This document shows positions 4,712 through 26,895 of a stretch of 26,895 nucleotides of DNA, piece by piece (position 1 is the stretch's first letter; every line of letters begins with the position of its first letter). The notes under the pieces are model-generated. The model made no database searches and was not told the DNA's origin. It saw only the letters and a list, made by a program, of their open reading frames with translations. The DNA lies in IMG/VR virus record IMGVR_UViG_3300006917_001358, positions 1-26,895 of that record. One strand, 5' to 3'. A program made the translations under genes and the position numbers. This stretch comes from a virus.

Positions 4712-5218
4712 ATGATAACAGATAAATTTGGTCAACAAGTATATTCAGAGCAGGATCTATGTGATTTTTATTTTAAAAATCCTGATCTTCAATTACATTC
4801 AGTTTTGGTTGAAACCCCCATTACGTTTAGCCGCGACCTAGATTTAGAAAATATCCCAAACCTTATACACTATCAATTAGAAAATATAACTGTAGACCAA
4901 TTTGACGATAAGTGTAGGAACAATTGGTTCATGCCAAAAGAATATATGGACATGGACATTGCCCAATTTGTATTAGAGCAATGTACTACAGACGCAGAAT
5001 TGCAACGTGCAGGCAAAGAACTATTGATGTTCCAAGAGCGTGATATGTTCATATTACTTAAGTACCTTAAGTATTTGGTAGACACAATGAGACAAAACAA
5101 CATAGTTTGGGGCGTAGGTCGAGGGAGTAGTGTAGCAAGTTTTGTATTGTTTTTGCTAGGGGTACACCGTATAAATAGTTTGTATTATGACCTCTCAATA
5201 GAAGAGTTCCTAAAATAA
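4712..5218 (+). CDS. Stand-alone fragment of a DnaE/Pol III alpha-type palm, lacking catalytic aspartates
   Basis: The product has 168 residues. Its C-terminal 60 residues align by eye with the C-family DNA polymerase (bacterial Pol III alpha) segment that contains the GRGS motif: WGVGRGSSVASFVLFLLG (133-150) followed by YYDLSIEEFLK, compared with the family pattern VGPGRGSxAGSLVAY...YDLLFERFLN. The helix before it (ELLMFQERDMFILLKYLKYL) also fits. The family's catalytic PDFDxDF motif should come about 15 residues later, but the protein stops at the FLN equivalent and the next frame encodes something unrelated. It therefore cannot be an active polymerase. It could bind nucleotide or DNA, or interfere with the host replicase; that is inference. 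A near-consensus host promoter sits directly upstream. Confidence 0.6.
   Translation: MITDKFGQQVYSEQDLCDFYFKNPDLQLHSVLVETPITFSRDLDLENIPNLIHYQLENITVDQFDDKCRNNWFMPKEYMDMDIAQFVLEQCTTDAELQRAGKELLMFQERDMFILLKYLKYLVDTMRQNNIVWGVGRGSSVASFVLFLLGVHRINSLYYDLSIEEFLK
5170..5177 (+). promoter_or_regulatory. Late-promoter-like box TATAAATA inside the polymerase-fragment gene
   Basis: A perfect match to the T4 late -10 element lies 51 nt before the ATG at 5229. The downstream gene has a strong Shine-Dalgarno sequence (AAGGAGA, 5217-5223). The box may simply encode Arg-Ile-Asn-Ser, so the promoter role is uncertain. Confidence 0.4.
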
Positions 5219-6887: not shown

Positions 6888-7577
6888 ATGTTTTATACAG
6901 AAAGCATCGGCACAACATATAAAAGTGCAAGTGAGATAAACACTGCTATGGCAGGTGTTTATAAGAATATGAGTTTGGCTGTACTAGTCAGTATGGCAGT
7001 AAGTTATATGGTTGGTACTAGCCCTGAACTTATGCAATTCTTTTTTACAGGATTCATGAAGTGGGTAACTATCTTTTTACCGTTAGTAGCAATTATCGGT
7101 GTTTCAGTATTATTGAATGCTAGTCCAACAAAGGGTATGGCATTAGCATGTTTGCATGGCTTTGCCGCATTAATGGGTTTGAGTTTTGCTACTATATTTG
7201 TAGTATACCAAATGGGTAGCATCTTTACAGCGTTTATGAGTGCTGCCGTATTATTTGGAGTGATGAGTTTTTATGGATACTTTACGAAGAAAGATTTGGA
7301 TAGCGTTGGTAAGTTTATGTTTGTTGGGCTCATTGCTATTATCATTGCCAGTATTATCAATATTTTTATTGGTAGTAGCCTATTTGCTATGGTTATCAGC
7401 GCCCTCGCAATCATCATCTTCCTTGGACTTACAGCCTATGACACGCAGAAAATTCGTGAAGAAGTTACCTATGATCATTCTGGGATAGCAGAGATCCGAG
7501 GGGCATTGACATTATACCTAGATTTCATTAATATATTCTTGTCGTTACTACAACTATTTGGTGGCAAAAAAGAATGA
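6888..7577 (+). CDS. Bax inhibitor-1 (BI-1/YccA/YetJ)-family membrane protein
   Basis: The 229-residue protein has about seven hydrophobic segments and no signal peptide. It has the family's C-terminal signatures: TAYDTQKI and LTLYLDFINIFLSLLQLFG. The two Asp residues in these motifs match the di-aspartyl pair that gates calcium leak in bacterial YetJ. AAGGAG (6876-6881) is an ideal ribosome site for the ATG at 6888. In bacteria, relatives are inner-membrane proteins linked to calcium leak (YetJ) or to the FtsH protease (YccA). In a phage it could alter membrane physiology or FtsH activity, or delay lysis; that is inference. Its stop overlaps the clamp-loader start by ATGA. Confidence 0.85.
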   Translation: MFYTESIGTTYKSASEINTAMAGVYKNMSLAVLVSMAVSYMVGTSPELMQFFFTGFMKWVTIFLPLVAIIGVSVLLNASPTKGMALACLHGFAALMGLSFATIFVVYQMGSIFTAFMSAAVLFGVMSFYGYFTKKDLDSVGKFMFVGLIAIIIASIINIFIGSSLFAMVISALAIIIFLGLTAYDTQKIREEVTYDHSGIAEIRGALTLYLDFINIFLSLLQLFGGKKE

Positions 7578-9765: not shown

Positions 9766-10359
9766 ATGAAAAAAGTCGCAGATAATTTTTTTAATGATAT
9801 TGATTTCGTCAGTATCACCGATACCATAAAGGGTATCATGACCAGCGATGGGTCAATGTCTACTATACTAGATTTCGAGCGTGTATTAGACGAAGCAGAC
9901 TTATATGCTTTTAAGAATTGGCTAGTAGGGGAACTAGTACAGGGTCCAGACGTTGGGCGCTATAGCGTAACTTGCGTATTCATGTGGCCTTATAAACTAA
10001 TGCCCGATCCAAGAGGTGCTAAAAGACTAATGAAGATTGGGTGCAAACTTAAATTTGCTAAGTCTAAAGTTAAAGTTCCTATTCAAATACAAGATTATGA
10101 AGATTTTGTGCCGGGTACACGTTACCCTAAGGCTGTAGAAAAGAAAGTTTGGTTTGTAGAAATTGAGATTCCATTAGAATTAATGGATGATATTAAAGAA
10201 GGTTCTATTGATTTGGCCGACGCTACTATTGACCTTGAAGAAATTGAGAATGCATATGATGAGGACCTAGATAAAGAGGGTACTCAGGAGCAAGATCAAG
10301 AATCAGCACCTGACCAAGATATGAATATGGGGGCAGGTGCTCCACCTCCAGTAGCCTAA
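9766..10359 (+). CDS. Conserved phage protein with Pro/Gln-rich tail
   Basis: The 197-residue soluble product has a folded N-terminal part (about 1-135, ending VWFVEIEIPLELMDDIKEGS). It continues into an acidic helix and then a low-complexity tail rich in Gln, Asp, Met, Gly and Pro. It looks like an uncharacterised protein of marine T4-like phages. It is followed after 8 nt by another conserved phage protein and then by the holin, suggesting late expression. No catalytic motif is visible. Confidence 0.7.
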   Translation: MKKVADNFFNDIDFVSITDTIKGIMTSDGSMSTILDFERVLDEADLYAFKNWLVGELVQGPDVGRYSVTCVFMWPYKLMPDPRGAKRLMKIGCKLKFAKSKVKVPIQIQDYEDFVPGTRYPKAVEKKVWFVEIEIPLELMDDIKEGSIDLADATIDLEEIENAYDEDLDKEGTQEQDQESAPDQDMNMGAGAPPPVA

Positions 10360-10367
10360 GGAATATT

Positions 10368-10910
10368 ATGAACAGAATACTTACAGAAGGCTTAGACTAT
10401 GAAGATATGCAGGGACAGGTAGAACCTAAAGTCACTGTAGACGAGTACGCCGCTAAAATGGGTAAAGACAAAGATATCGTAACTGTTACCTTTGTTGTTA
10501 ATTCTAAACTTGCCGGCGATGATTTGGTTAGTTGGTTTGAGCGCGGCTACGATTTTGTATTAGATGCAAGCGTAAGCGAAGGTGAGATTGAACCAAACAA
10601 ATACTTAGTATTTGTAGAAATGAATCGTAGACTTGCAGTACCAGAAAGAATTATTGAATTACTAGAAGATTTACAAACGCTAACCGGATTAAAATTAAAA
10701 GATTGGACTGTAGAAGTTGATGATGAAACATATGATGCTGATATAGATATATTAAAGCAAGTCATCATACTGAATCCAAATGAATATAAGATAGAAGAAG
10801 AACAAGAAGAAGAATTAAACGAAATGCGTACTATTGCAAACCTTAGTACAAAGAAAATACATTCTGACAACGAGTATATAACAAAAATAAAAACCATGGC
10901 GGGGATGTAA
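10368..10910 (+). CDS. Conserved phage protein with possible N-terminal processing site
   Basis: The 180-residue product belongs, from memory, to an uncharacterised family of marine T4-like phages; a typical segment is DDLVSWFERGYDFVLDASVS. It begins MNRILTEGLD, with an L-T-E tripeptide at 5-7 that fits the T4 prohead protease rule (L/I-x-E). This is the weakest of the leader candidates. The C-terminal part is Glu-rich, then basic. A Shine-Dalgarno sequence (AAGGAA) precedes the ATG. The next gene begins 1 nt after its stop. Confidence 0.7.
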   Translation: MNRILTEGLDYEDMQGQVEPKVTVDEYAAKMGKDKDIVTVTFVVNSKLAGDDLVSWFERGYDFVLDASVSEGEIEPNKYLVFVEMNRRLAVPERIIELLEDLQTLTGLKLKDWTVEVDDETYDADIDILKQVIILNPNEYKIEEEQEEELNEMRTIANLSTKKIHSDNEYITKIKTMAGM

Positions 10911-10911
10911 G

Positions 10912-11427
10912 ATGGAGCGTACAGTTTTAACAAAGCGTTACGAAGAAGAGGAAATGATGGTCGTCGGTCGCAACGATGAACATTATACGTCAATGGTTGA
11001 TGACAAGGAGTTTTACGGACAAATGCAACAACGAAACGAACAAGCCAACCAAATGTTAAACCTCACACAGGCAGGTAACAATGCCGCACAGAACGCTGAG
11101 GTATTAGTTAAAAATACAAACGAAGATTGGATTAATAAAAAGTGGCGCCCTAGCATGGGTTGGATGTATATGGCCGTTTGTATTTGTGACTTCATTATTT
11201 TCCCAGTTCTTTGGTCATTATTACAAGCAATTAGTAAGGGTCAAGTAACAGCACAATGGCAACCAGTAACACTTATGGGTGCTGGATTATTCCATATCTC
11301 TATGGGTGCAATTCTAGGTATCGCAGTATACGGTAGAACAAAAGAGAAGTTGGCAGACGTACCTAATAATGGTGCTCCTGCAGGTTCACCCGGAATGTCA
11401 CTACCAGGCTTGAACTCACTCAAGTAA
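10912..11427 (+). CDS. Holin of the 3TM (GTA-type) class, two clear membrane segments
   Basis: The 171-residue product has a polar N-terminal 70 residues, then the signature NKKWRPSMGWMYMAV (75-89) typical of the 3TM/gene-transfer-agent holin family. Membrane segments lie at about 84-106 and 117-139, followed by a Gly/Pro/Asn-rich tail. Holins open the inner membrane at the end of infection. No endolysin or spanin is visible beside it. A sigma70-like promoter for the DnaJ gene overlaps its last codons. Confidence 0.75.
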   Translation: MERTVLTKRYEEEEMMVVGRNDEHYTSMVDDKEFYGQMQQRNEQANQMLNLTQAGNNAAQNAEVLVKNTNEDWINKKWRPSMGWMYMAVCICDFIIFPVLWSLLQAISKGQVTAQWQPVTLMGAGLFHISMGAILGIAVYGRTKEKLADVPNNGAPAGSPGMSLPGLNSLK

Positions 11428-11439
11428 GTATGCTATAAT
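11410..11439 (+). promoter_or_regulatory. Extended -10 sigma70-like promoter before dnaJ-like gene
   Basis: TGCTATAAT (11431-11439) is a perfect extended -10 (TGnTATAAT). A fair -35, TTGAAC, lies at 11410-11415 with an 18-nt spacer. Five nt separate TATAAT from the ATG at 11445 and no ribosome site is present, so the mRNA would be leaderless. Confidence 0.65.
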
Positions 11440-11444
11440 ATTGA

Positions 11445-12245
11445 ATGGATCATTATCAGACATTGGGCGTTAGCAGAAATGCTACGCCCGATGAAATTAA
11501 AAAAGCCTATCGTAAACTAGCAAGTCAACATCATCCTGATAAAGGTGGAGATACCCACAAGTTTCAGGATATCCAAACTGCCTACGATACATTAAGCGAT
11601 CCACAAAAGAAACAACAATACGATAACCCTAATCCTTTTGGAAACAGTGGGCAAGAATTCCCCGGTGGCTTTAGTTTTAATTTTGGTGGAGACAACATCA
11701 ATGACATATTCAGTCAGATGTTTGGTGGCAGACCAAACCCCTTTCAAAATCAAGGTAGACAAGTATATAGAACTAAAGTAACTGTGCCATTAGAAGATGC
11801 ATATACTGGCGCTAATCATACATTAAAATTACATACACACGAAGGACTTAAGGTAATAAGCATTGATGTACCTAAAGGCGTAGCAAGTGGTGCCCAACTT
11901 AGATATGAGAACGTATTAGTATCGGGTAGTTTGATTGTTGAATTCGTAGTCATGCCCCATTTAAAATACGATAGGCGTGGACAAGATTTATATAGTAATC
12001 AACCCATATCTGTATTAGATTTAATTGTTGGCACTAAGGTGCAATTTACTACATTAGGTGGAAAGACATTGGATGTTACTGTAAGACCAAACACTCAACC
12101 ATATATGCAACTGCGCATACCAAAAGAAGGTATGCCCAATGATCAAGGAGGGTACGGAGACCAAATACTATTGATTAAACCCTTCATTCCTGATAATATA
12201 TCAAATGATATCATTGAGAGTATCAATAAGTTCAAAGCAAAATAA
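11445..12245 (+). CDS. DnaJ-like Hsp40 co-chaperone without zinc finger (CbpA type)
   Basis: The 266-residue protein has an N-terminal J domain (1-60) with HPD at 30-32, required to stimulate Hsp70 ATPase. A Gly/Phe-rich linker follows (about 63-105, GGFSFNFGGDNINDIFSQMF), then a C-terminal substrate-binding domain (VYRTKVTVPLEDAYTG onward). The Cys-rich zinc region of DnaJ is missing, as in CbpA. It should direct host DnaK to chosen substrates, for example replication or virion proteins; which ones is unknown. It has its own near-consensus promoter and directly precedes the ClpA-like gene. Confidence 0.9.
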   Translation: MDHYQTLGVSRNATPDEIKKAYRKLASQHHPDKGGDTHKFQDIQTAYDTLSDPQKKQQYDNPNPFGNSGQEFPGGFSFNFGGDNINDIFSQMFGGRPNPFQNQGRQVYRTKVTVPLEDAYTGANHTLKLHTHEGLKVISIDVPKGVASGAQLRYENVLVSGSLIVEFVVMPHLKYDRRGQDLYSNQPISVLDLIVGTKVQFTTLGGKTLDVTVRPNTQPYMQLRIPKEGMPNDQGGYGDQILLIKPFIPDNISNDIIESINKFKAK

Positions 12246-12248
12246 ATA
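12241..12248 (+). promoter_or_regulatory. Late-promoter-like box AATAAATA before clpA-like gene
   Basis: Seven of eight matches to the T4 late octamer. It overlaps the dnaJ-like stop codon and lies 18 nt before the TTG start, leaving room for the AAGGA ribosome site at 12254-12258. Confidence 0.45.
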
Positions 12249-12266
12249 CGTAAAAGGAAATAAACA

Positions 12267-14546
12267 TTGAATAACTCACCTGAAATTGAAAACATTATTG
12301 AGCAGGCGATAGCCAATGCTAAAGATCGTAAACATCAGTATGTTACTATTGAACATTTATTGTTGGCATTGGTTACACATCCTCCCTTCAAGAAATGTTT
12401 GAACACTTTTAATGTTGATACTGATTTAATGGTTTCAGAGATAGAAGCATATCTTAATGGGTTACATGCTATTGAGAGTAAAGACCCTGATGTTATGCCG
12501 CGCAAGACAAATAGCCTTGAGCGTACTATGAATCGCAGTGTGACACAAGTACTATTCACTGGTCGTAGACAAGTTCTTACTATTGATTTGTATTTGAGTA
12601 TCGCCGCAGAAGGTAATAGCCACGCACATTATTTCTTACTGAAATATGGTGTTAACAAACAAGACTTTGTTCCGCACTGGCAGAAAACTTATAAGGGTAG
12701 TGATTATGGTAATAAACTTACTGATAATCAAGCCGATGAAATCCTTGAAGAACACACAATTAATCTGACTCAACTTGCACGACAAGGTAAGTTGGAGCCT
12801 GTCATCGGTCGCCATAAAGAGATTGACGATATCATTAACGTATTGGCTAAACGATTTAAGAGTAACGTATTGATGGTTGGTGTTCCAGGCGTTGGTAAAA
12901 CTGCTATTGCAGAAGGTATCGCATTAGCAATTGTAAACAATGAAGTTCCTGAGTTCCTTGAGGATCATGAACTATACAGTCTTGAGATTGGTAGTTTGCT
13001 TGCAGGCAGTCGCTATCGTGGTGACTTTGAAGAAAAGGTAAAGCACGTTATTGATGCATTGAATACTAAGAAGAGAGCGATTCTGTTCATTGACGAAGCA
13101 CACACTATGCAGAATGCAGGTAGTGGTAGCAATGGCAGTGTTGACTTTGCTAATATGATTAAGCCTGCAATTACTAAAGGCACACTTAAAGTTATCGCAA
13201 GTACAACATGGGAAGAGTTCTACGAAAGTTTTGAGAAGGATCGTGCATTGATGCGCAGATTCTATCGTGTTAGCATTGATGAGCCTACAGAAGAAACTAC
13301 AATTCGTATTCTCAGTGGATTGGCTGCAAGACTTAATGACTTCCACAAAGTTAATATTACTGATGAGGCAATCAAAGCCGCTGTAGAAAATGCAGGTCGT
13401 TATATCAATGACCGTAAGAATCCTGACAAGAGCATTGACTTGCTTGATGCAGCCTGTGCTAAACAGAAAGTGTTGGGTAACGAAGATGCAATCATTACTA
13501 AGCAATTAGTACATGACCAAGTTGAGAAGTTTACTGGTGTACCTGCTGACAAATTGAACAGCGATAATTTTGATAGGATTCAAAACCTTGATATCAATGT
13601 TAAGAGTAAGTTGTACGGACAAGATGAAACTGTTGAAAAGGTTCTTGAGCGTGTTTACGTTTCATTTGCCGGTATTGGTAATGAAACTAAGCCAACAGCA
13701 AGTTTCTTATTCTTGGGTCCTACTGGTACTGGTAAAACAGAACTTGCTAAACTATTAAGTAAAAACCTCGACATGCCATTACTCAAGTATGACATGAGTG
13801 AGTACAGTGAAAAACATAGTGTTAGTAGTTTGATTGGTCCTCCTCCTGGTTATGTTGGCTTCGGTGATAGTCAAGTGCAAGGTGGACGTTTGATTAGTGA
13901 CCTAAGTAAGAACCCACATGCCATCATGTTGTTTGATGAAGTTGAAAAGGCTCACCCCGATATCTTCAATATCTTCCTACAAATGCTTGATGAAGGTACT
14001 ATCACCGGTAGTAATGGTAAGAAGGTCAGTTGTAAGAATACTATCATTATCATGACTAGTAATTTGGGTAGTAGCGATAATGAGCGTAACAATATTGGCT
14101 TCGGTGACATGGAAAAGAGTGGCGAGGATGATCGTGCATTGAAAGAATTCTTCAAGCCTGAATTTAGAAATCGTCTTGACCTTGTATGCAAGTTTAATAA
14201 ACTTGATATGTTATCTATTAAGAAGATTGTTATTAAATTTACAGATGAACTTAAGAAGAGTTTGCTAGATAAGCATAACATCACTCTTAACCTTAGTGAA
14301 CCGGTAGTTGAGTATTTGGCTGATAAGGGCTATGATAAGAAAATGGGTGCTAGACCCCTAGCACGTAAGATTGATGAAATGATTCGTGTTCCACTATCTA
14401 AAAAGATTTTGTTTGAACGTATCAACAGTGCTAATGTAATGGCTGTACTAAATGAAAATCAAGAAATTGATTTTAGTGTTTCACAAAAAGTAACTGCAAT
14501 GGTGGGAGAAGATGGAATCATTCAAGTTGAACCTGGAAGACCGTGA
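12267..14546 (+). CDS. clpA: ClpA-like AAA+ unfoldase with ClpP-docking IGF tripeptide
   Basis: The 759-residue product is practically the length of E. coli ClpA (758). An N domain (1-140, substrate/adaptor binding) is followed by D1 with Walker A GVPGVGKT (205-212) and Walker B LFIDEAH (273-279). D2 has Walker A GPTGTGKT (484-491), LFDEVEKAH (555-563), the GPPPGYVG pore loop and the GARPLAR sensor-2. No ClpB-type middle domain is present. I-G-F at 610-612 occupies the place of the ClpA IGL loop that docks on ClpP. No ClpP gene is visible here, so it probably borrows host ClpP. The start is TTG with AAGGA upstream. Its end overlaps the next gene by 35 nt. Confidence 0.92.
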   Translation: MNNSPEIENIIEQAIANAKDRKHQYVTIEHLLLALVTHPPFKKCLNTFNVDTDLMVSEIEAYLNGLHAIESKDPDVMPRKTNSLERTMNRSVTQVLFTGRRQVLTIDLYLSIAAEGNSHAHYFLLKYGVNKQDFVPHWQKTYKGSDYGNKLTDNQADEILEEHTINLTQLARQGKLEPVIGRHKEIDDIINVLAKRFKSNVLMVGVPGVGKTAIAEGIALAIVNNEVPEFLEDHELYSLEIGSLLAGSRYRGDFEEKVKHVIDALNTKKRAILFIDEAHTMQNAGSGSNGSVDFANMIKPAITKGTLKVIASTTWEEFYESFEKDRALMRRFYRVSIDEPTEETTIRILSGLAARLNDFHKVNITDEAIKAAVENAGRYINDRKNPDKSIDLLDAACAKQKVLGNEDAIITKQLVHDQVEKFTGVPADKLNSDNFDRIQNLDINVKSKLYGQDETVEKVLERVYVSFAGIGNETKPTASFLFLGPTGTGKTELAKLLSKNLDMPLLKYDMSEYSEKHSVSSLIGPPPGYVGFGDSQVQGGRLISDLSKNPHAIMLFDEVEKAHPDIFNIFLQMLDEGTITGSNGKKVSCKNTIIIMTSNLGSSDNERNNIGFGDMEKSGEDDRALKEFFKPEFRNRLDLVCKFNKLDMLSIKKIVIKFTDELKKSLLDKHNITLNLSEPVVEYLADKGYDKKMGARPLARKIDEMIRVPLSKKILFERINSANVMAVLNENQEIDFSVSQKVTAMVGEDGIIQVEPGRP

Positions 14547-19048: not shown

Positions 19049-20035
19049 ATGAAAATCGAAAACATTATAAATGAGACAACCGCAGGGGCAACTGCATCAG
19101 GTTCAGTGGCAGCGGTGGCAAAGCCAATGGGCGAAACACAAAAGCGAGGCAAAATGGGACCAAAAGTCTCTGGTTTAGAACCAGCAGGCAAGGTCATGTT
19201 TGGCAAAGCAAAGAAGAAAGGCCCATATACAAATAGCATTAGCGAAAGTGCTATTAAAGAAGATGAACTATCTGAAGAGGATATGTTCTTAATGAGAGCC
19301 GAAAAGCCTAAGGTTTTTGGATTTATTCCTAAAGGCCAAAGTCGTGTAGACCACGAAGTTGAAATGGCACGTAGTGATTTAATACAAGCCATGAAAAATG
19401 CTAAAACAGTCTATGGATTAATTAAAGACCGTAGCGAAGATGAAGGTCTTGAGGGTTGGGTACAAGAAAAGATTATTAAGGCAGCAGATTATCTAAACAC
19501 TATCGCAGAATACCTAGAAGGTAAGAAGATGCAAGAAATGCAGGGTGGCGTCGTAGCCGCAGGTGGTGTTGGAGAAGGCATGGGATCAGGTTCTGTAGGT
19601 TATGACAATGCTAAAGCAATTGCATATGCAGCCAAAGATGGCACAAGTGCTGATGTTAAGTTAGGTGATGACACAGTAACATTAGAATATCCTGAAGCAC
19701 GTTTTGCATATGGTGTTTATAAGCAAGCCGTTAAAGACGGTCGTGTAGATGAAATCATTAAAGTATTCTCAGACCCTATCAAGTTCCACAAGATGATGAA
19801 GAAGATGGGCGATATGCTTTATCGTGACCGTAGTAAAGAAATGGCACAGGCTGCGGCACAACGTATTGGTCAACCAGGTATGATGGAAGGTGCTAAGGTT
19901 GATCGCATGGTACAACACATTAAGAAGTCTGAAATGAAAGCAGGCAAGAGTGCTGACAAAGCAGAAGATATTGCTTGGGCTACTGCAAACAAACGTGGTT
20001 ACTTAGACAATAAGAATAAAAAGAAGAAGGATTAA
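19049..20035 (+). CDS. Modular, probably virion-internal protein with capsid-targeting-like leader
   Basis: The 328-residue product begins MKIENIINE, ending in I-N-E at 7-9, then an Ala/Gly/Thr-rich linker and basic stretches. Further L/I-x-E tripeptides (I64-E66, L74-E76) flank a short acidic region. A helical module spans about 100-160 (MARSDLIQAMKNAKTVYGLI... GLEGWVQEKIIKAADYL). A second lies at about 185-262 (LGDDTVTLEYPEARFAYGVY). A basic C-terminal module (283-328) carries KKSEMKAGKSADKAEDIAWA and ends KNKKKKD. From memory these modules recur in marine T4-like phage proteins. The leader, basic tail and neighbouring polyprotein point to a DNA-associated protein packaged in the head; this is inference. 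Confidence 0.65.
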   Translation: MKIENIINETTAGATASGSVAAVAKPMGETQKRGKMGPKVSGLEPAGKVMFGKAKKKGPYTNSISESAIKEDELSEEDMFLMRAEKPKVFGFIPKGQSRVDHEVEMARSDLIQAMKNAKTVYGLIKDRSEDEGLEGWVQEKIIKAADYLNTIAEYLEGKKMQEMQGGVVAAGGVGEGMGSGSVGYDNAKAIAYAAKDGTSADVKLGDDTVTLEYPEARFAYGVYKQAVKDGRVDEIIKVFSDPIKFHKMMKKMGDMLYRDRSKEMAQAAAQRIGQPGMMEGAKVDRMVQHIKKSEMKAGKSADKAEDIAWATANKRGYLDNKNKKKKD

Positions 20036-20037
20036 TT

Positions 20038-22248
20038 ATGAGTTCTATCATCAAAGGTATAATGTCTGAGTTGAGCCACTCAAATAAATTTGATGAGGGC
20101 GCTAGGCTAAGCGACTCTTATTATATTCCTAGAATTATTGCCGGCGACTTTCCTAAAAATTCTGAAATAACAGTAAGTACCAAAAAACGAGAATCTAAAA
20201 CAGGTAAAACCGTTAGAGATTTTGGACTAAAAATTAACCCTGGATTCTTGCAGACAAAACTTTTTTATAAATTAGAAGATATTAAAACAGTAATTGATTT
20301 AGGTGATGATGTTAGAAACAGAGGACAATCAACCGCCGGTACTTTAGGGAGAGCAGCGGTCGGCGGCCTGACATTTGGAGTAGGAGGCGCGGTAGTAGGT
20401 GGCTTAACTGGAAAAAATGAGTTTGATGAATACGGGGTCTACGGGCTTGTTTTTAACGACGGTAAGAGGGCAAAAATTAAATTTCATAAAGATTCTATGT
20501 TAGGGGAGCAACTTAGTAACTTTCTTAATAAAAAAGTGGATTTGGGTTTCGGTGAGGTGCCTCAAAATAAGAGTAAAAAATCAAATAATGAACCACCAAA
20601 ACAACCCCAACAAACAATTAAAAAGACTACCAATACTGCCGATACAAACATTGCGCCAATCTCACCTACACCTGCAACATCTGCTACCCAAACACCAATA
20701 GCCGCAAATACTACAGTATCCTCACCAAATGTTAATACTGAACTACAAAAAAGATTGGCAGCACGTAAAGCAGGAAAGCCAGTGTACTCAGGTGGACTTG
20801 AAGAGGGTGAAGATAGACAAGCAGAATTAGAAATGGCATTACAAAAAGCCAGACAGATAACTAAACAAATCAAGTATGATGATACTGCTACAGATATTAT
20901 TGTACAAATTCAAATGCTTGCAGAAAAGTTCAATATTGATAAAGATTCACTTGAATCAGCAATTGATGATGTATATAATGCAAAGAATCAATTAGAATCA
21001 GCAGTATATGGATTAGATGAAGTATTTGAAGAGGCACTGCAACAATCACGTTGGGACGATGACGAAATGCTAGATGAGAATCTACGCAAGTGGTTCAAAG
21101 AGAAGTGGGTTCGCTTTGGTCCTGATGGTAAGATTCGTGGTGCTTGTGCTAGAGGTGATGATAGTGAAGGTAAGCCAAAGTGTTTGCCACAAAGTAAAGC
21201 ACATAGTCTAGGCAAGAAGGGTCGTGCAAGTGCTGCCGCACGTAAGCGTAGAGAAGATCCTAATCCAGAGCGTAGTGGCAAGGCTATCAATGTCAATACT
21301 AAGAAAAAGTCAAACGAAGCAGAGTTAGACGAAGCCTGTTGGAAAGGTTACCACAAAGAAGGTAACAAGAAAATGTTTGGCAAAACATATCCTAACTGTG
21401 TAAAAAATACTAACGAAGAACAAGAATTAGATGAAATCAACCGTAGAGGCTTTTTAAAAGGTTTGGGCGCAGCCGCACTAGGTGCTGCTGGAATGAAGGC
21501 ACAAGCACAGACTGATCAAGAGCAAGATTTGGGAGATGGATTTGTTTTAGTGACAATACCTTTTAGAGGCCACACACTCAAGGCAGTATTGGACAAACAA
21601 ACTAATACATATTACACCACTAACCGTAGAGCAGACGGTACAGGTGCTATTATTCGTAGCATGGCTCCTTATATTATGGTACGTGGTGATCAAGCATCCA
21701 CTGCTATGAACGTCGGACCTGCTACTTTGGCTGCGATGAAAAAAGCTGGTCTAGAAACAATGCAAGAAGGTGTGGCGGAAGAACAACTAGACGAAAAGTG
21801 TTGGGACACACATAAGCAAGTTGGTATGAAAAGTAAGGGCGGTAAAATGGTTCCTAACTGTGTGCCAAAAGAAAGCGTTGAAGAGGGTCATCAGCAATGT
21901 CCCGAATGCGGTGGCGCAATGTACGAAGCAGAAATGATGAATGAAAAGAAAGATGCTTGCTACTATAAAGTAAAGAGTCGTTATAAGGTATGGCCAAGTG
22001 CTTATGCTAGTGGCGCACTAGTTAAGTGCCGCAAGAAGGGTGCAAGTAACTGGGGCACTGGTGGTAAGAAAAACGAAGATACTGCATATGCAGGTGGTAT
22101 GGGACAAGGTGGCAATGCTGGACAAAGTTATCGTAAGTATAAAGTAAAACCATCAGGTATAGCACAGGGTATTAGTGAGACAGAAGCAGTCAATCGTAAC
22201 GACGGTGACGGTTGGCATTGGTATGACATAAAACCAGCAGGGAAATAA
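20038..22248 (+). CDS. Modular polyprotein with LDE-linkers (probable internal virion polyprotein)
   Basis: The 736-residue protein contains at least six parts. 1-170: beta-rich domain with a glycine zipper (GRAAVGGLTFGVGGAVVGG, 104-122). 180-250: Pro/Thr-rich linker. 254-345: acidic helices. 348-425: basic Cys-containing module, WFKEKWVRFGPDGKIRGACA onward, recalling DUF5872-like sequences. 433-455: CW...YPNCV mini-module. 467-575: domain preceded by a twin-arginine-like signal, NRRGFLKGLGAAALGAAG. 587-609: second CW...VPNCV mini-module. 612-736: CPECGG knuckle and KVWPSAYASGALVKCRKKGA module. L-x-E sites lie at most borders (256, 347, 432, 466, 586, 714), mostly in NEEQ-x-LDE contexts. The prohead protease of a T4-like phage would be expected to cut there; not proven. 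It starts 2 nt after the previous stop. Confidence 0.65.
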   Translation: MSSIIKGIMSELSHSNKFDEGARLSDSYYIPRIIAGDFPKNSEITVSTKKRESKTGKTVRDFGLKINPGFLQTKLFYKLEDIKTVIDLGDDVRNRGQSTAGTLGRAAVGGLTFGVGGAVVGGLTGKNEFDEYGVYGLVFNDGKRAKIKFHKDSMLGEQLSNFLNKKVDLGFGEVPQNKSKKSNNEPPKQPQQTIKKTTNTADTNIAPISPTPATSATQTPIAANTTVSSPNVNTELQKRLAARKAGKPVYSGGLEEGEDRQAELEMALQKARQITKQIKYDDTATDIIVQIQMLAEKFNIDKDSLESAIDDVYNAKNQLESAVYGLDEVFEEALQQSRWDDDEMLDENLRKWFKEKWVRFGPDGKIRGACARGDDSEGKPKCLPQSKAHSLGKKGRASAAARKRREDPNPERSGKAINVNTKKKSNEAELDEACWKGYHKEGNKKMFGKTYPNCVKNTNEEQELDEINRRGFLKGLGAAALGAAGMKAQAQTDQEQDLGDGFVLVTIPFRGHTLKAVLDKQTNTYYTTNRRADGTGAIIRSMAPYIMVRGDQASTAMNVGPATLAAMKKAGLETMQEGVAEEQLDEKCWDTHKQVGMKSKGGKMVPNCVPKESVEEGHQQCPECGGAMYEAEMMNEKKDACYYKVKSRYKVWPSAYASGALVKCRKKGASNWGTGGKKNEDTAYAGGMGQGGNAGQSYRKYKVKPSGIAQGISETEAVNRNDGDGWHWYDIKPAGK

Positions 22249-22249
22249 T

Positions 22250-22405
22250 ATGTTAAAAATAGTAACAGGTTTGGCTGTAGTAGGTCAAAAGAAACAAACA
22301 CTAACAGATGCTAAACCTAAAAAAGGTAATATGGTAACTAATGCAAAGCCAATTGATCCTAAGGTAGATCCTAGTGTTAAAATTAAAAAGGTATATCTTA
22401 AGTGA
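22250..22405 (+). CDS. Small basic protein, 51 residues
   Basis: A short frame starts at an ATG 1 nt after the polyprotein stop (TAATATG). The 51-residue product begins MLKIVTGLAVVGQKKQTLTD and ends KKVYLK, Lys/Val/Pro-rich. Its stop overlaps the GTG start of the next gene (GTGA), which supports translation. No family recognised. Confidence 0.6.
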   Translation: MLKIVTGLAVVGQKKQTLTDAKPKKGNMVTNAKPIDPKVDPSVKIKKVYLK

Positions 22406-22629
22406 GAGCCAGTGAGTTTATTATAGAAAATAAGGGTTTACCAATGCCCGGTACTTACGAACAAGAATACAATATGTTCAAAAGTAAAGGGCCTAGACGT
22501 ATTACTGCTATGACCAATGAAGAACAGATTGAAGAAAAATGGTCTAAGAAATATAAAAATAGTATAAATTGTAATAATCCAAAAGGTTTTAGTCAACGTG
22601 CCCATTGTCAGGGAAGAAAGAAGAAATGA
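22402..22629 (+). CDS. Small protein with leader plus Cys/Lys basic module
   Basis: The 75-residue product starts at a GTG within the GTGA overlap. It begins MRASEFIIE (I-x-E at 7-9) and contains NEEQIEE (39-45, another I-x-E). It ends in a basic module, KWSKKYKNSINCNNPKGFSQ (46-65) and then RAHCQGRKKK, which I recall as a recurrent C-terminal unit in aquatic T4-like phages. If cut at both sites, a 30-residue Lys/Cys peptide is released. The leader DNA is 16 of 19 identical to that of the kinase-like gene at 23756. Probably packaged in the head with DNA; inference. Confidence 0.65.
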   Translation: MRASEFIIENKGLPMPGTYEQEYNMFKSKGPRRITAMTNEEQIEEKWSKKYKNSINCNNPKGFSQRAHCQGRKKK

Positions 22630-22766
22630 CACATTTACAAGATGTAAATATGACATACTTTCAACATATGCGTAGGGCATTGACTATAGCAGGAATATTA
22701 ATTGTACACAGTGTTTTTCCAAACGTTTGGAAAACAAAAGCAACAGAATTATTATGTAGAGGATAA
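22626..22766 (+). CDS. 46-residue protein, DUF6356-like
   Basis: A short frame begins in an ATGA overlap with the previous gene and ends 1 nt before the Dps-like start. The product contains MTYFQHMRRALTIAGILIVH (9-28) and FPNVWKTKATELLCRG. This pattern (YFxHMxxAL... FPxVWxxKAxxLL) matches my memory of DUF6356, small proteins of phages and marine bacteria with unknown role. The central part is hydrophobic enough for membrane contact. The tight overlap supports translation. Confidence 0.65.
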   Translation: MTHLQDVNMTYFQHMRRALTIAGILIVHSVFPNVWKTKATELLCRG

Positions 22767-22767
22767 C

Positions 22768-23211
22768 ATGCTAGCAGAAGCATTAAAAACATTATTATCA
22801 ACAAGTTATGCGTTTGTAATTAAAGCGCAACACTTTCATTGGAACGTTGAGGGTCCTAACTTCCCGCAATACCATAAATTCTTCGGTGACATTTATGAAG
22901 AAGTATACGGTAATGCTATAGACCAAACAGCAGAATATATTAGAACACTAGATAGTTACACACCTGGTAGCATGCGTAGATTTAGTGAACTATCAGTGAT
23001 AGAAGAACAGCCTATGATTCCACGTGCTGAACTCATGTTACAAGAACTAGAAGTAGATAATCAAAAAGTTCTTGAATTACTTAACAACTGTTTTGAACAT
23101 GCTGAGGCAGAAAACAAGCAAGGTATCGCTAATTTTATTGCAGAGCGTTTAGATGCACATGAAAAGCATGGTTGGATGTTACGTAGCACACTTAAAAAAG
23201 CCAGAGCATGA
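22768..23211 (+). CDS. dps: Dps-like ferritin (DNA-protection / iron storage)
   Basis: The 147-residue product starts at an ATG preceded by AGAGGA; a longer upstream frame is only an overlap with the previous gene. It has the Dps four-helix pattern: HFHWNVEGPNF (22-32), H36, D41, YEE (43-45) and D52..AE56. Of the usual inter-subunit ferroxidase ligands, H24, H36, D52 and E56 appear kept. The Asp normally four residues after the second His is Gly here, with an Asp one place later. Dps oxidises Fe(II) with peroxide, stores iron and shields DNA. Its stop overlaps the heme oxygenase start (ATGA), tying iron release to storage. Confidence 0.85.
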   Translation: MLAEALKTLLSTSYAFVIKAQHFHWNVEGPNFPQYHKFFGDIYEEVYGNAIDQTAEYIRTLDSYTPGSMRRFSELSVIEEQPMIPRAELMLQELEVDNQKVLELLNNCFEHAEAENKQGIANFIAERLDAHEKHGWMLRSTLKKARA

Positions 23212-23744
23212 CAATACTAAGAGAAGCAACACACGATAAGCATCGTGAAGTAGAAGCACTGCCTATGATTCAGGCTATAATGAAGGGTCCTACTTTTGAC
23301 CAATATGTCTCATATCTATATGAATTAAAAGAAATTTATAGAGTGATAGAGTTGGCTGCGAGAGGTGCAGATATTCTTAAAGATTTACCTGGCATAGAAC
23401 GCTATGATGCTATAACCGAAGATTTAAATGATTTAAACAATAACTATACAAGAGAGTTGATGCCCGGCACTAAAAAGTATATAGATCATATATGGGCAAC
23501 AGCGTATCATAATCCACATTTATTATTAGCACATGTCTATGTAAGACATATGGGCGATTTATATGGTGGTAAGTTAATGGCTAGAGTAGTCCCGGGTGCA
23601 GGCAGAGCATATAAATTTGAAGATAGACCCGGTATCATCAAAGCATTCAATGAGAAACTAACAATGGATTTGGCTGATGAGGCCAATCTAGCATTTGACT
23701 ATTTCATACAGATTTTTGACGAGTTGTATAAGAGTCAAAACTAA
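23208..23744 (+). CDS. ho1: Heme oxygenase (HO-1 type)
   Basis: The 178-residue enzyme has the alpha-helical heme oxygenase fold. It carries the N-terminal LREATHDKHREVEAL (4-18, proximal His at 12) and the distal-helix motif GDLYGGK (116-122), matching GDLSGGQ of HO-1, including the conserved Asp. It cleaves heme to biliverdin, CO and Fe(II). In cyanophages ho1 accompanies bilin reductases (pebS, pcyA); none is visible here, so iron release from host heme is a better guess. It is co-translated with the Dps-like gene. Its LRE at the N-terminus is part of the enzyme family's normal sequence, not a leader. Confidence 0.88.
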   Translation: MTILREATHDKHREVEALPMIQAIMKGPTFDQYVSYLYELKEIYRVIELAARGADILKDLPGIERYDAITEDLNDLNNNYTRELMPGTKKYIDHIWATAYHNPHLLLAHVYVRHMGDLYGGKLMARVVPGAGRAYKFEDRPGIIKAFNEKLTMDLADEANLAFDYFIQIFDELYKSQN

Positions 23745-23755: not shown

Positions 23756-24958
23756 ATGAGAGCCAGCGAATTTACCAGTAAATTAAATGAGAGCATGCTG
23801 ATTACAGATGTTCCCAATGAGGATTGGCTGGCTGGAAAAGTTGAATACGCAAAAAGCAGAGGTCGTGATAGTTATGGTGTACCATATATGGGATCAACAA
23901 CTGGTATTGTAAGACCTGAACCTAAACTACCTGTGAGTCTTTTAAAAAGACTACCTGGCATGCGCGGTGAACAACGCAATGTCAGAGAAAAAGACTTAGA
24001 AGCCATAATGAAAATAATGAAAGACACAGGTAAACTTCCATTAAGGCAAAATGGTCAAGAATATGCACCCTTCGTTATGGTGGCCTATAATGGCGAAGCC
24101 TGGGTCAATGAAGGTAATCATCGTATCATGGCTGCGGCTGCATTAGGATGGGACGAATTACCAGTAGAGTTAAAGTATTTTGATGGTGGTGAACGTGTTA
24201 AATCAGGTCCATTATACCCAGATAAGATAGGCTTAACACATCCTAAACCCGGCTCTACTGTTGTAATTAATGAAGTAGATGTAGACGAAGCAGAATCAGG
24301 AACTCCTGAGGCAAAGAAAATCACACAACAACTTAAGGATGCTGGGTATAAACAATTAGGTAGTGGTGCCGACGCAACCGTGTGGAGTAAGGATGAGGGG
24401 CAAGTGATAAAGGTCATTATGCCTGATAGTAAAGATATTACACAAGCCGCATATGTATTTAAAAAGTTCTATGAGTTTTGCACACAACATAAAGACTTAG
24501 CATGCTTACCAAAATTTATACCGATACAAGGTAGAGACTATGTAGAATTTAAATTAGGTAATAAGAATTACATACAGGTTAGTATGGAGCAACTGTATCC
24601 TATTAAAGAAGATAGTTTTGCACAGGGTATAGTTTGGTTCTTTAGTGATTATGTATCCAATGGTGTTAAGTGGGACAAAGTTGATGATTTGTTAGGATAC
24701 CCGCAAACATGGTATGAGTTCCATACTAATAAGGCAAATCAGTTTGCAGAAAAATGGCAAAATTTATCAATGATAAAAGGTAATGAAAGAAAACATTCAG
24801 AGATGCAACTACTATACACAGTAATGGAATTGTTATATAGAACAGGTAAGATTAATAAAATGTTTTGGGACTTGCATACTGACAATGCTATGCAACGTAA
24901 AGATGGTACTATAGTTATCATTGATCCATGGTTTGAAAGATATGAGGGAACATTATGA
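23756..24958 (+). CDS. ParB-like / protein-kinase-like fusion with internal-protein leader
   Basis: The 400-residue product begins MRASEFTSKLNE (L-N-E at 10-12). Residues 75-145 resemble a ParB/sulfiredoxin-like fold with NEGNHRIMAAAALGW (118-132). A V-V-I-N-E tripeptide site (171-173) lies in the linker. Residues 195-400 look like a protein/aminoglycoside-kinase fold: Gly-rich loop LGSGADATVW (201-210), possible ATP Lys K219, catalytic loop WDLHTDNAM (371-379) and metal-binding D390 in IIDPW. T4 packages Alt and T7 makes the gp0.7 kinase, both acting on host proteins; a packaged kinase would be comparable. Activity and targets are inferred. The start lies 5 nt after a late-type box. Confidence 0.7.
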   Translation: MRASEFTSKLNESMLITDVPNEDWLAGKVEYAKSRGRDSYGVPYMGSTTGIVRPEPKLPVSLLKRLPGMRGEQRNVREKDLEAIMKIMKDTGKLPLRQNGQEYAPFVMVAYNGEAWVNEGNHRIMAAAALGWDELPVELKYFDGGERVKSGPLYPDKIGLTHPKPGSTVVINEVDVDEAESGTPEAKKITQQLKDAGYKQLGSGADATVWSKDEGQVIKVIMPDSKDITQAAYVFKKFYEFCTQHKDLACLPKFIPIQGRDYVEFKLGNKNYIQVSMEQLYPIKEDSFAQGIVWFFSDYVSNGVKWDKVDDLLGYPQTWYEFHTNKANQFAEKWQNLSMIKGNERKHSEMQLLYTVMELLYRTGKINKMFWDLHTDNAMQRKDGTIVIIDPWFERYEGTL

Positions 24959-25335
24959 AAATTAGCGAGTTATTAAGAGAAGGCAAATTTGATCCTGACT
25001 TTGACGATCAGGAAGAAGTTCCTGCTGATCCAGACAAAGATAAGGTACCACACTTAGTCATGCAACTTAGAAAAGCATTTGACGTAGATGGTAATTATCC
25101 TATACTCTTTAGAGACAATACTAAAGCAAAATTGTCTATGGATGAGATTGTAGGATTCTTAAAAACATATATGAGTCTTAAACCATTAGAAAGAGAACAG
25201 ATGCAAGATATGGCTGCTAATAGTAAAAAAGATTTCATGCAGTCTATAACTAGTTTTAAGAAAACTATGGCACCTGTGCAGAAAATAAAAGGTGATAGAT
25301 ACATGTCACACTTTGCAGGAGATTTAGACAAATGA
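24955..25335 (+). CDS. Small acidic/helical protein with internal-protein leader
   Basis: The 126-residue product begins MKISELLREGKF, with L-R-E at 7-9, the same place as in two other leader genes in this window. The rest is acidic near the N-terminus (DPDFDDQEEVPADPDKDK) and then helical and basic. I do not recognise the family. It starts in an ATGA overlap with the kinase-like gene, with GAGGGA upstream, and its stop overlaps the nuclease start. It is a candidate virion-internal protein. Confidence 0.65.
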   Translation: MKISELLREGKFDPDFDDQEEVPADPDKDKVPHLVMQLRKAFDVDGNYPILFRDNTKAKLSMDEIVGFLKTYMSLKPLEREQMQDMAANSKKDFMQSITSFKKTMAPVQKIKGDRYMSHFAGDLDK

Positions 25336-25775
25336 AACACTTTATTATAGCATTAATTGCAACATTAGGATTGATATTACCTGCATATGCACAAAAAACA
25401 CCACAGGGTGTTATGTACGATGTTACACTAGTACGTGTAACTGACGGTGATACAGTAGTATTCAAGGCTAGTTTTTTACCAGCACCACTAAAGCCAGAAC
25501 TAGCATTACGTGTGTTTGGTGTTGATACTCCTGAAAAAGGATTTCGTGCAAAATGTCCTAGCGAAGCACAACGAGGTGAGGCTGCATCAGCATTCACTAA
25601 GAAAGCAGTAGCCAATTCAAAAACACATCAAGTTTATCTAATGGACTGGGATAAGTTTGGTGGAAGAGTTTTAGGTGATCTATTACTTGATGGTCAAAGT
25701 CTAAGACAAATGTTAATAGCCAATGGCTACGCTAGAGAATATTTTGGCGAAGCAAAACAAAGTTGGTGTAACTAA
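25332..25775 (+). CDS. Secreted staphylococcal-nuclease-like endonuclease
   Basis: The 147-residue product has a Sec signal peptide (1-20, FIIALIATLGLILPAYA, cut AYA|Q). An SNase domain follows: VRVTDGDTVVF (34-44), ALRVFGVDTPE (58-68) and DKFGGRVLGDLLLDG (107-121). R60, D65, E68 and R112 correspond to the R35, D40, E43 and R87 of staphylococcal nuclease, so the active site looks intact. Two Cys (75, 146) could form a disulfide outside the cytoplasm. It would act in the periplasm or outside the cell on DNA or RNA, perhaps for nutrient salvage or against competing phage DNA; inference. Start overlaps the previous stop (ATGA); AGGAG at 25317-25321. Confidence 0.88.
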   Translation: MKHFIIALIATLGLILPAYAQKTPQGVMYDVTLVRVTDGDTVVFKASFLPAPLKPELALRVFGVDTPEKGFRAKCPSEAQRGEAASAFTKKAVANSKTHQVYLMDWDKFGGRVLGDLLLDGQSLRQMLIANGYAREYFGEAKQSWCN

Positions 25776-25937: not shown

Positions 25938-26895
25938 ATGATAAAAAAGATCCTTGTGTTGGCTATAGTTACTGCCTTTATGGGCAGTGTGCCAGCATAT
26001 TCACAAACTACAAACACTAGTACGCAAAGTACAACCGGTGGAACAACTACAAGTACAACAACTCCTATCAACCAAGGAGGTTACACAAGCACCTCTTTAG
26101 TTGATACGAACAGCACTAGCAACAGTACCAGTAGTGTTAACACTACAAATATGACTACTACTAACAATAATAGTACTAGTATGAGTACAGTTAATAGTAC
26201 CAATAATAACAACAATACTAGCACTAGTACCAATGTCAATACCAACAATAATATTCAAAGTGGTACTGTCACTAATATTAACCAAAATACTAATAATGGT
26301 ACTATGACATATAATAACAATAATGTTAATAGTGGTACTGTAACTTATAACAATAATAACAATAATGTCAATACTGGTACTATGACATATAATAACAATA
26401 ATGTTAATAGTGGTACTATGACATATAATAACAATAACAATACGACAAGCACTAACACTAACAATAACGTGATGAGCGGAACCGTTACGTATAATAACAA
26501 TAATGTTTCTACTAACACTAACCACAATATCAATAGTGGTACTCAAACATTTAATAATAACAACGTAAGTACAAGTAATAGTAGAGCCGAAGTTATTAAC
26601 AGCGGCACACAAACATTTAACAACAATAATGTGAGTAGTTCTAACAATACTAATAATAACGTGAACACTAATGTTAATACTGGAGACATGACAAATCGTA
26701 ATATCAATACAACTACATCAAATAACGTAAACACAAATAACAACACTAGCAGTAATACTAACGTTAATATTCAGCAAGGTGAGATGACTAACCGCAATAT
26801 CAATGAAACAACTGTTACGCAGAAAGTCATTCAACCACCACCAACAGCAATCGCTCCGCCTATGATGAGTGTGGGTAGCGATCTTTGCGTAACAG
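25938..26895 (+). CDS. Secreted Asn/Thr/Ser-rich repeat protein (3' truncated by window)
   Basis: An open frame from the ATG at 25938 runs without a stop to the window end (319 codons visible). It starts with a Sec signal peptide, MIKKILVLAIVTAFMGSVPA, followed by YSQ. About 250 residues then consist almost only of Asn, Thr and Ser, with about ten repeats of the type (S/T/N)-G-T-(V/M/Q)-T-(Y/F)-NNNN-V. After a Pro-rich hinge (IQPPPTAIAPPMM) a new segment begins, GSDLCVT, probably the start of a folded Cys-containing C-terminal domain of a kind I recall in aquatic phages. It likely forms a beta-rich fibrous secreted or surface product. AGGGA precedes the start. The long minus-strand frames here are artefacts of the repetitive codons. 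Confidence 0.75.
   Translation, partial: MIKKILVLAIVTAFMGSVPAYSQTTNTSTQSTTGGTTTSTTTPINQGGYTSTSLVDTNSTSNSTSSVNTTNMTTTNNNSTSMSTVNSTNNNNNTSTSTNVNTNNNIQSGTVTNINQNTNNGTMTYNNNNVNSGTVTYNNNNNNVNTGTMTYNNNNVNSGTMTYNNNNNTTSTNTNNNVMSGTVTYNNNNVSTNTNHNINSGTQTFNNNNVSTSNSRAEVINSGTQTFNNNNVSSSNNTNNNVNTNVNTGDMTNRNINTTTSNNVNTNNNTSSNTNVNIQQGEMTNRNINETTVTQKVIQPPPTAIAPPMMSVGSDLCVT
26255..26640 (+). repeat. Degenerate tandem repeats encoding G-T-x-T-Y-NNNN-V
   Basis: Imperfect direct repeats built around GGTACTATGACATATAATAA lie in the Asn-rich gene with variable spacing of roughly 36-60 nt. They are in frame and translate to the repeat unit, so they are coding repeats, not a CRISPR array or integration site. Confidence 0.75.

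Follow-up and report, generated by a model that had tools for sequence, protein, structure and literature searches.

Gene context of a compact phage heme oxygenase encoded directly behind a Dps-type mini-ferritin, and its possible role in iron release

Introduction

What use could a phage make of a heme oxygenase (HO) gene placed directly behind the gene for a Dps-type mini-ferritin? This arrangement occurs in the window, the whole stretch of DNA analyzed here, which is a linear 26,895-base IMG/VR record representing a 26.9 kb phage fragment. A sequence-only reading of the window had described the two genes as a coupled iron and heme module without bilin genes, held together by an overlap of four bases.

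Results

Gene Layout of the Window

The clamp loader encoded in the window was 53% identical to its counterpart in Pseudomonas phage PA5oct and its relatives, and the nearest match of its ClpA-like ATPase was found in large rhizobial phages. The source of the window is an uncultured aquatic phage, a T4-like or jumbo-type myovirus. As shown in Table 1, open reading frames and profile matches confirmed the Dps-HO pair and its ATGA overlap, as well as the DUF6356-like gene reported directly upstream, which ends one base before the Dps start. Overlaps of 4 bp were present at 8 of the 30 same-strand junctions in the window, indicating that the ATGA shared by Dps and HO reflects compact gene order and not a special bond. 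The overlap is therefore real, but its reading as the sign of a special Dps-HO link was rejected. The T4-type late promoter TATAAATA had three matches in the window versus 4.5 expected, none of them at the Dps-HO pair, and an Rfam scan and a tRNA scan found nothing.

Table 1. Features surrounding the Dps-HO pair, with positions in the window.
Feature	Position	Strand	Evidence
75-aa gene, leader MRASEFIIEN	22402..22629	+	ORF; tblastn synteny, kept upstream of Dps in more than 20 Dps loci of related phages
46-aa DUF6356 gene	22626..22766	+	PF19883, E 2.7e-7, above cut-off; ATGA overlap with the preceding 75-aa gene
Dps-type mini-ferritin, 147 aa	22768..23211	+	PF00210, E 1.2e-22
Compact HO, 178 aa	23208..23744	+	PF01126, E 3.2e-17
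ATGA shared by the Dps stop and the HO start	23208..23211	+	Sequence; present in sister contig too
400-aa protein, ParB-like N-terminal and kinase-like C-terminal	23756..24958	+	PHROG matches; synteny
126-aa protein (g126), leader MKISELLREG, kept downstream gene	24955..25335	+	Synteny
Staphylococcal-nuclease-like (SNase) protein, kept downstream gene	25332..25775	+	PF00565; synteny

Four other genes of the window were recorded. A membrane protein of the Bax inhibitor-1 family, here in a phage, is encoded at 6888-7577 (PF01027, E 2e-52). The 168-aa ORF at 4712-5218 matched just one segment of DNA polymerase III alpha (PF07733) and represents either a free-standing fragment or a gene that has been split. 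A repetitive, modular 736-aa protein is encoded at 20038-22248; it contains repeated Cys-Trp ... Pro-x-Cys motifs and an internal twin-arginine-like segment (residues 466-484). Finally, a repetitive ORF at 25938-26894, very rich in Asn, Thr, and Ser and with a signal-like N-terminus, runs off the window end.

Properties of HO and Dps

HO matched PF01126 with 63.5 bits against a curated cut-off of 23. Its active-site residues were aligned with those of HO structures and comprise the proximal His12 and the distal-helix segment G116-D117-L-Y-G120-G121. The sequence-only reading had raised a possible loss of heme-binding residues; the alignment revealed none, and H12, G116, D117, G120, and G121 were invariant in 31 homologues. 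In the distal GDLSGG motif, Ser is replaced by Tyr in the window's clade and by Tyr or Phe in most of the family. The predicted model (pLDDT 95, from an alignment of 31 sequences) had the all-helical HO fold, with TM values of 0.82-0.88 to HmuO, HO-1, and cyanobacterial HOs. HmuO of Corynebacterium diphtheriae was the best structural match (TM ~0.82-0.85). HmuO and other iron-acquisition HOs are known to supply iron with no bilin reductase involved; they differ from the window HO in being part of heme uptake systems, and their identity to it is ~25%. Judged from its sequence and model, HO most likely opens heme to biliverdin, Fe2+, and CO.

Dps matched PF00210 with 80.8 bits, and its ferroxidase residues H24, H36, D52, and E56 were invariant in 28 phage homologues. 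The predicted model (pLDDT 95) had a TM of 0.92 to Pseudomonas Dps PA0962. The four-helix fold, the ferroxidase residues, and a similar length are common to the window Dps, PA0962, and Listeria Dps, whereas the window Dps differs from bacterial Dps in belonging to a phage family, in a one-residue insertion between H36 and D52 that is found in its nearest relatives, and in lacking an N-terminal extension, helix A of the model beginning at residue 2. E. coli-type Dps binds DNA through a Lys-rich N-terminal tail; many Dps proteins lack this tail, which does not define the family. Given the missing extension, it is doubtful on the model that the window Dps binds DNA as E. coli Dps does, though it may bind by other means, and protection of DNA through binding is likewise doubtful.

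Compared with a sister contig, IMGVR_UViG_3300036770_001400 (L002), dN/dS was 0.09 for HO and 0.06 for Dps, indicating that both genes were selected for function. By fold, active-site residues, and purifying selection, both genes look intact.

HO Family and Bilin Reductases

The compact phage HO family was represented by at least 572 stretches in IMG/VR. A scan of ~85,000 prokaryote genomes yielded 12 relatives, all weak and one of them (L182) on a phage-like contig; no clear bacterial donor of HO emerges from these, and the family appears nearly confined to viruses.

Neither the window nor the sister contig, including ~25 kb downstream there, contained a bilin reductase (FDBR; PF05996). The earlier statement that bilin reductases are absent thus holds for the window, but a 26.9 kb fragment cannot by itself decide absence from the whole genome. 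The accompanying statement that ho1 genes of cyanophages are usually found together with bilin reductases was wrong with regard to adjacency, since in P-SSM2, P-HM1, MED4-213, and P-RSM6 the reductase lies far from ho1, elsewhere in the genome; a reductase elsewhere was also present in the long HO-bearing cyanophage genomes AG-345-L05/F15. Because of this distance, absence from 27 kb says little on its own. Cyanophage ho1 (P-SSM2, P-HM1, P-RSM6) is likewise phage-borne, belongs to PF01126, and does not adjoin a bilin reductase, but it is longer than the window HO, only ~23-28% identical to it, and distant in the tree, with the reductase elsewhere in complete genomes.

Within the compact phage HO family, FDBR adjoined HO in 48 of the 49 FDBR-bearing loci. 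In the HO tree, a quick search without bootstrap in which L106 and L107 sat on long branches, the window HO fell into a phage clade of 28 distinct sequences (SH-aLRT 98), 27 of which came from records without FDBR. The sole FDBR-bearing member was L127, and the FDBR-free records included long ones of 170 kb (G082), 160 kb (G119), 104 kb (G086), and 60 kb (G085). A subclade of 11 sequences that contained the window HO (support 90) had no FDBR in any member. The phage HemO proteins of hemO-pcyA/X (valaS) cassettes, represented by the pelagiphage Mosig EXVC030M, whose HO is 31% identical to the window HO, and by the CB_2 phage, are likewise compact (~175-190 aa) and come from T4-like phages; these HOs are paired with a bilin reductase, whereas the window HO and 27 of the 28 clade members are not. 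A pigment role is accordingly less likely for the window HO than iron release. Searches of the window and of FDBR-free relatives turned up no ferredoxin gene, so the electron donor of HO would have to be that of the host.

Genes Adjoining HO within the FDBR-Free Clade

Peptide deformylase was encoded directly downstream of HO in 10 parsed loci and in L114. HO lay between an upstream NrdA and a downstream NrdB gene in L123, L128, and L142, and L131, which is truncated, retained an NrdB fragment. The order in these four loci was truncated NrdA (~594 aa), non-specific endonuclease, HO, and NrdB; cyanophage P-RSM6 has a comparable nrdA-HO-nrdB order, independently. HO adjoined an IscA-type Fe-S protein in L106 and Dps in the window and sister contig. 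In the second-largest context (seven loci), HO was accompanied by a Pyr_excise-like gene together with a small gene of Zn-ribbon-like type, and no iron protein adjoined it; the remaining contexts had no recognizable neighbor.

Altogether, an iron protein adjoined HO in 4 of 8 contexts of the FDBR-free clade, versus ~3% in the pooled background, a post hoc count of families picked after inspection, for which the binomial value of 6.5e-5 is not a fair p-value. The recurrent iron-protein context is thus no more than suggestive. Near the Mosig HO, a ferrochelatase and several 2OG-Fe(II) oxygenases were encoded. In the FDBR-free relatives G082, G100, G119, and G085, a Dps or ferritin gene is present as well as HO, but the two are not neighbors.

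Dps Loci of Related Phages

Both genes and their ATGA overlap were kept in the sister contig at 87-88% identity, with synonymous sites near saturation. Elsewhere in the sister contig, a gene for a TctA tripartite tricarboxylate transporter (10309-11757, E 1e-92) is followed by a porin/outer-membrane beta-barrel gene (11753-12307). Among 79 records with a related Dps, the sister contig was the only one with HO, so that the Dps-HO adjacency is known from two closely related contigs, possibly from related samples. The proposal of a Dps-HO module, which the sequence-only reading had wished to see looked for in other phages, was therefore rejected as a description of a widespread unit, and literature on phage Dps paired with HO yielded nothing relevant.

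Around Dps, related phages shared an upstream order of genes of the 19049, 20038, and 22402 types, sometimes DUF6356, and then Dps, followed by varying combinations of the kinase-like, g126, and SNase genes. The position directly after Dps was variable. In L006, which lacks HO, the kinase-like gene of the 400-aa type begins 14 bp after Dps; SNase follows Dps directly in L012, g126 does so in L005 and L045, and an unrelated ORF fills the slot in L022. Since this slot is empty or otherwise filled in relatives, HO has been inserted at a variable site.

DUF6356 was detected in 7 of ~160 loci (the window, L022, L044, L045, L060, L070, and L071), in every case preceding Dps in the same orientation, and within 280 bp of it in 6 of the 7, and it was not found in HO-only loci. 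The sister contig lacks it and has another small gene, of the MRHYKF type, in its place; L022 has both. Where it is present, DUF6356 is thus a more regular companion of this Dps than HO is, and from its gene context we regard this small gene as a candidate for a protein that works with phage Dps.

An N-terminal leader of the form M(K/R)xxE(F/I/L)...xE, such as MRASEFIIEN, was seen in the window genes starting at 22402, 23756, and 24955, also in that at 19049, and in Dps loci L003-L045. It was present in 100 of 784 ORFs in Dps-bearing loci versus 33 of 4898 internal Met positions (~19-fold), and in 2 of 553 ORFs in HO-clade phages; Dps and HO of the window do not have it. The leader resembles the T4 capsid targeting sequence with its prohead protease site, and this likeness suggests that the leader-bearing proteins may be packaged in the capsid.

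Discussion

The explanation we work with, and regard as somewhat probable, is that HO releases iron from host heme and Dps buffers it. On this reading, an intact phage HO gene entered the variable site immediately after a phage Dps gene that is older and conserved. With a host electron donor, HO would then open host heme to Fe2+, CO, and biliverdin. As no phage enzyme that uses biliverdin lies near HO or in most related genomes, the useful product would most likely be iron, which could reach iron enzymes of the phage or the host while replication proceeds, and Dps would oxidize and store the excess and so lessen Fenton damage. The iron role proposed in the sequence-only reading remains the best-fitting function, with an HO clade nearly always free of bilin reductase and two proteins that look functional.

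The pair may instead be fortuitous, HO being one of several cargo genes in the slot after Dps, with both proteins useful singly and not cooperating. We consider this a serious though less probable explanation. It is consistent with the restriction of HO to the sister contig among the Dps records, the differing occupants of the slot in L006, L012, L005, L045, and L022, and the routine nature of 4-bp overlaps, and HO adjoins unrelated genes in many other phages. However, both genes and the overlap have been kept in the two contigs despite near-saturated synonymous sites, and elsewhere HO lies repeatedly beside iron proteins.

It is rather improbable that biliverdin is the product that matters, whether it would go to a bilin reductase encoded beyond the fragment or to a phytochrome of the host. 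The CB_2 phage HemO makes biliverdin (PMC11480375), full-length HO-bearing cyanophage genomes hold the reductase elsewhere, and two bacterial HO relatives (L184 and L186) adjoin bacteriophytochrome-like genes. Against a bilin supply stand the FDBR-free clade members, long records included, the adjacency of FDBR to HO in the relatives that have it, and its absence from the window and the downstream part of the sister contig.

Removal of heme as attack or defense, by poisoning respiration or peroxidases or by relieving heme toxicity, would follow from HO chemistry alone, with Dps mopping up the iron and limiting the harm it does. The neighborhood contains no pointer to such a role, and phages generally depend on the energy metabolism of their host until a late stage, which makes it quite improbable. 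Decay or inactivity of the HO gene is very improbable and was rejected: HO has 178 aa versus ~230 aa in cyanophage HO and Tyr for Ser in GDLSGG, but the length and the Tyr or Phe are family-wide in phage homologues, the catalytic residues are kept, the HO fold is confident, and dN/dS is low.

Beyond the proposed buffering of heme-derived iron by Dps in this phage, we tentatively suggest a broader possibility, which we think somewhat less likely to be right than wrong: the whole phage HO clade may have turned from bilin synthesis to iron salvage, freeing Fe from host heme for phage iron enzymes (ribonucleotide reductase, peptide deformylase, and Fe-S assembly), and in one lineage HO may have been coupled to a phage mini-ferritin as an iron buffer. 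In the cited literature, described phage HOs have been interpreted mainly in terms of pigment synthesis, and iron supply has already been proposed as a possible alternative (PMC9983427; PMC11480375). The present analysis adds a clade for which pigment synthesis is an unlikely explanation, together with a recurrent iron-protein context. This well-supported FDBR-free clade with its recurrent iron neighbors offers a defined gene set for the iron idea, in which the pigment pathway is not a confounding factor.
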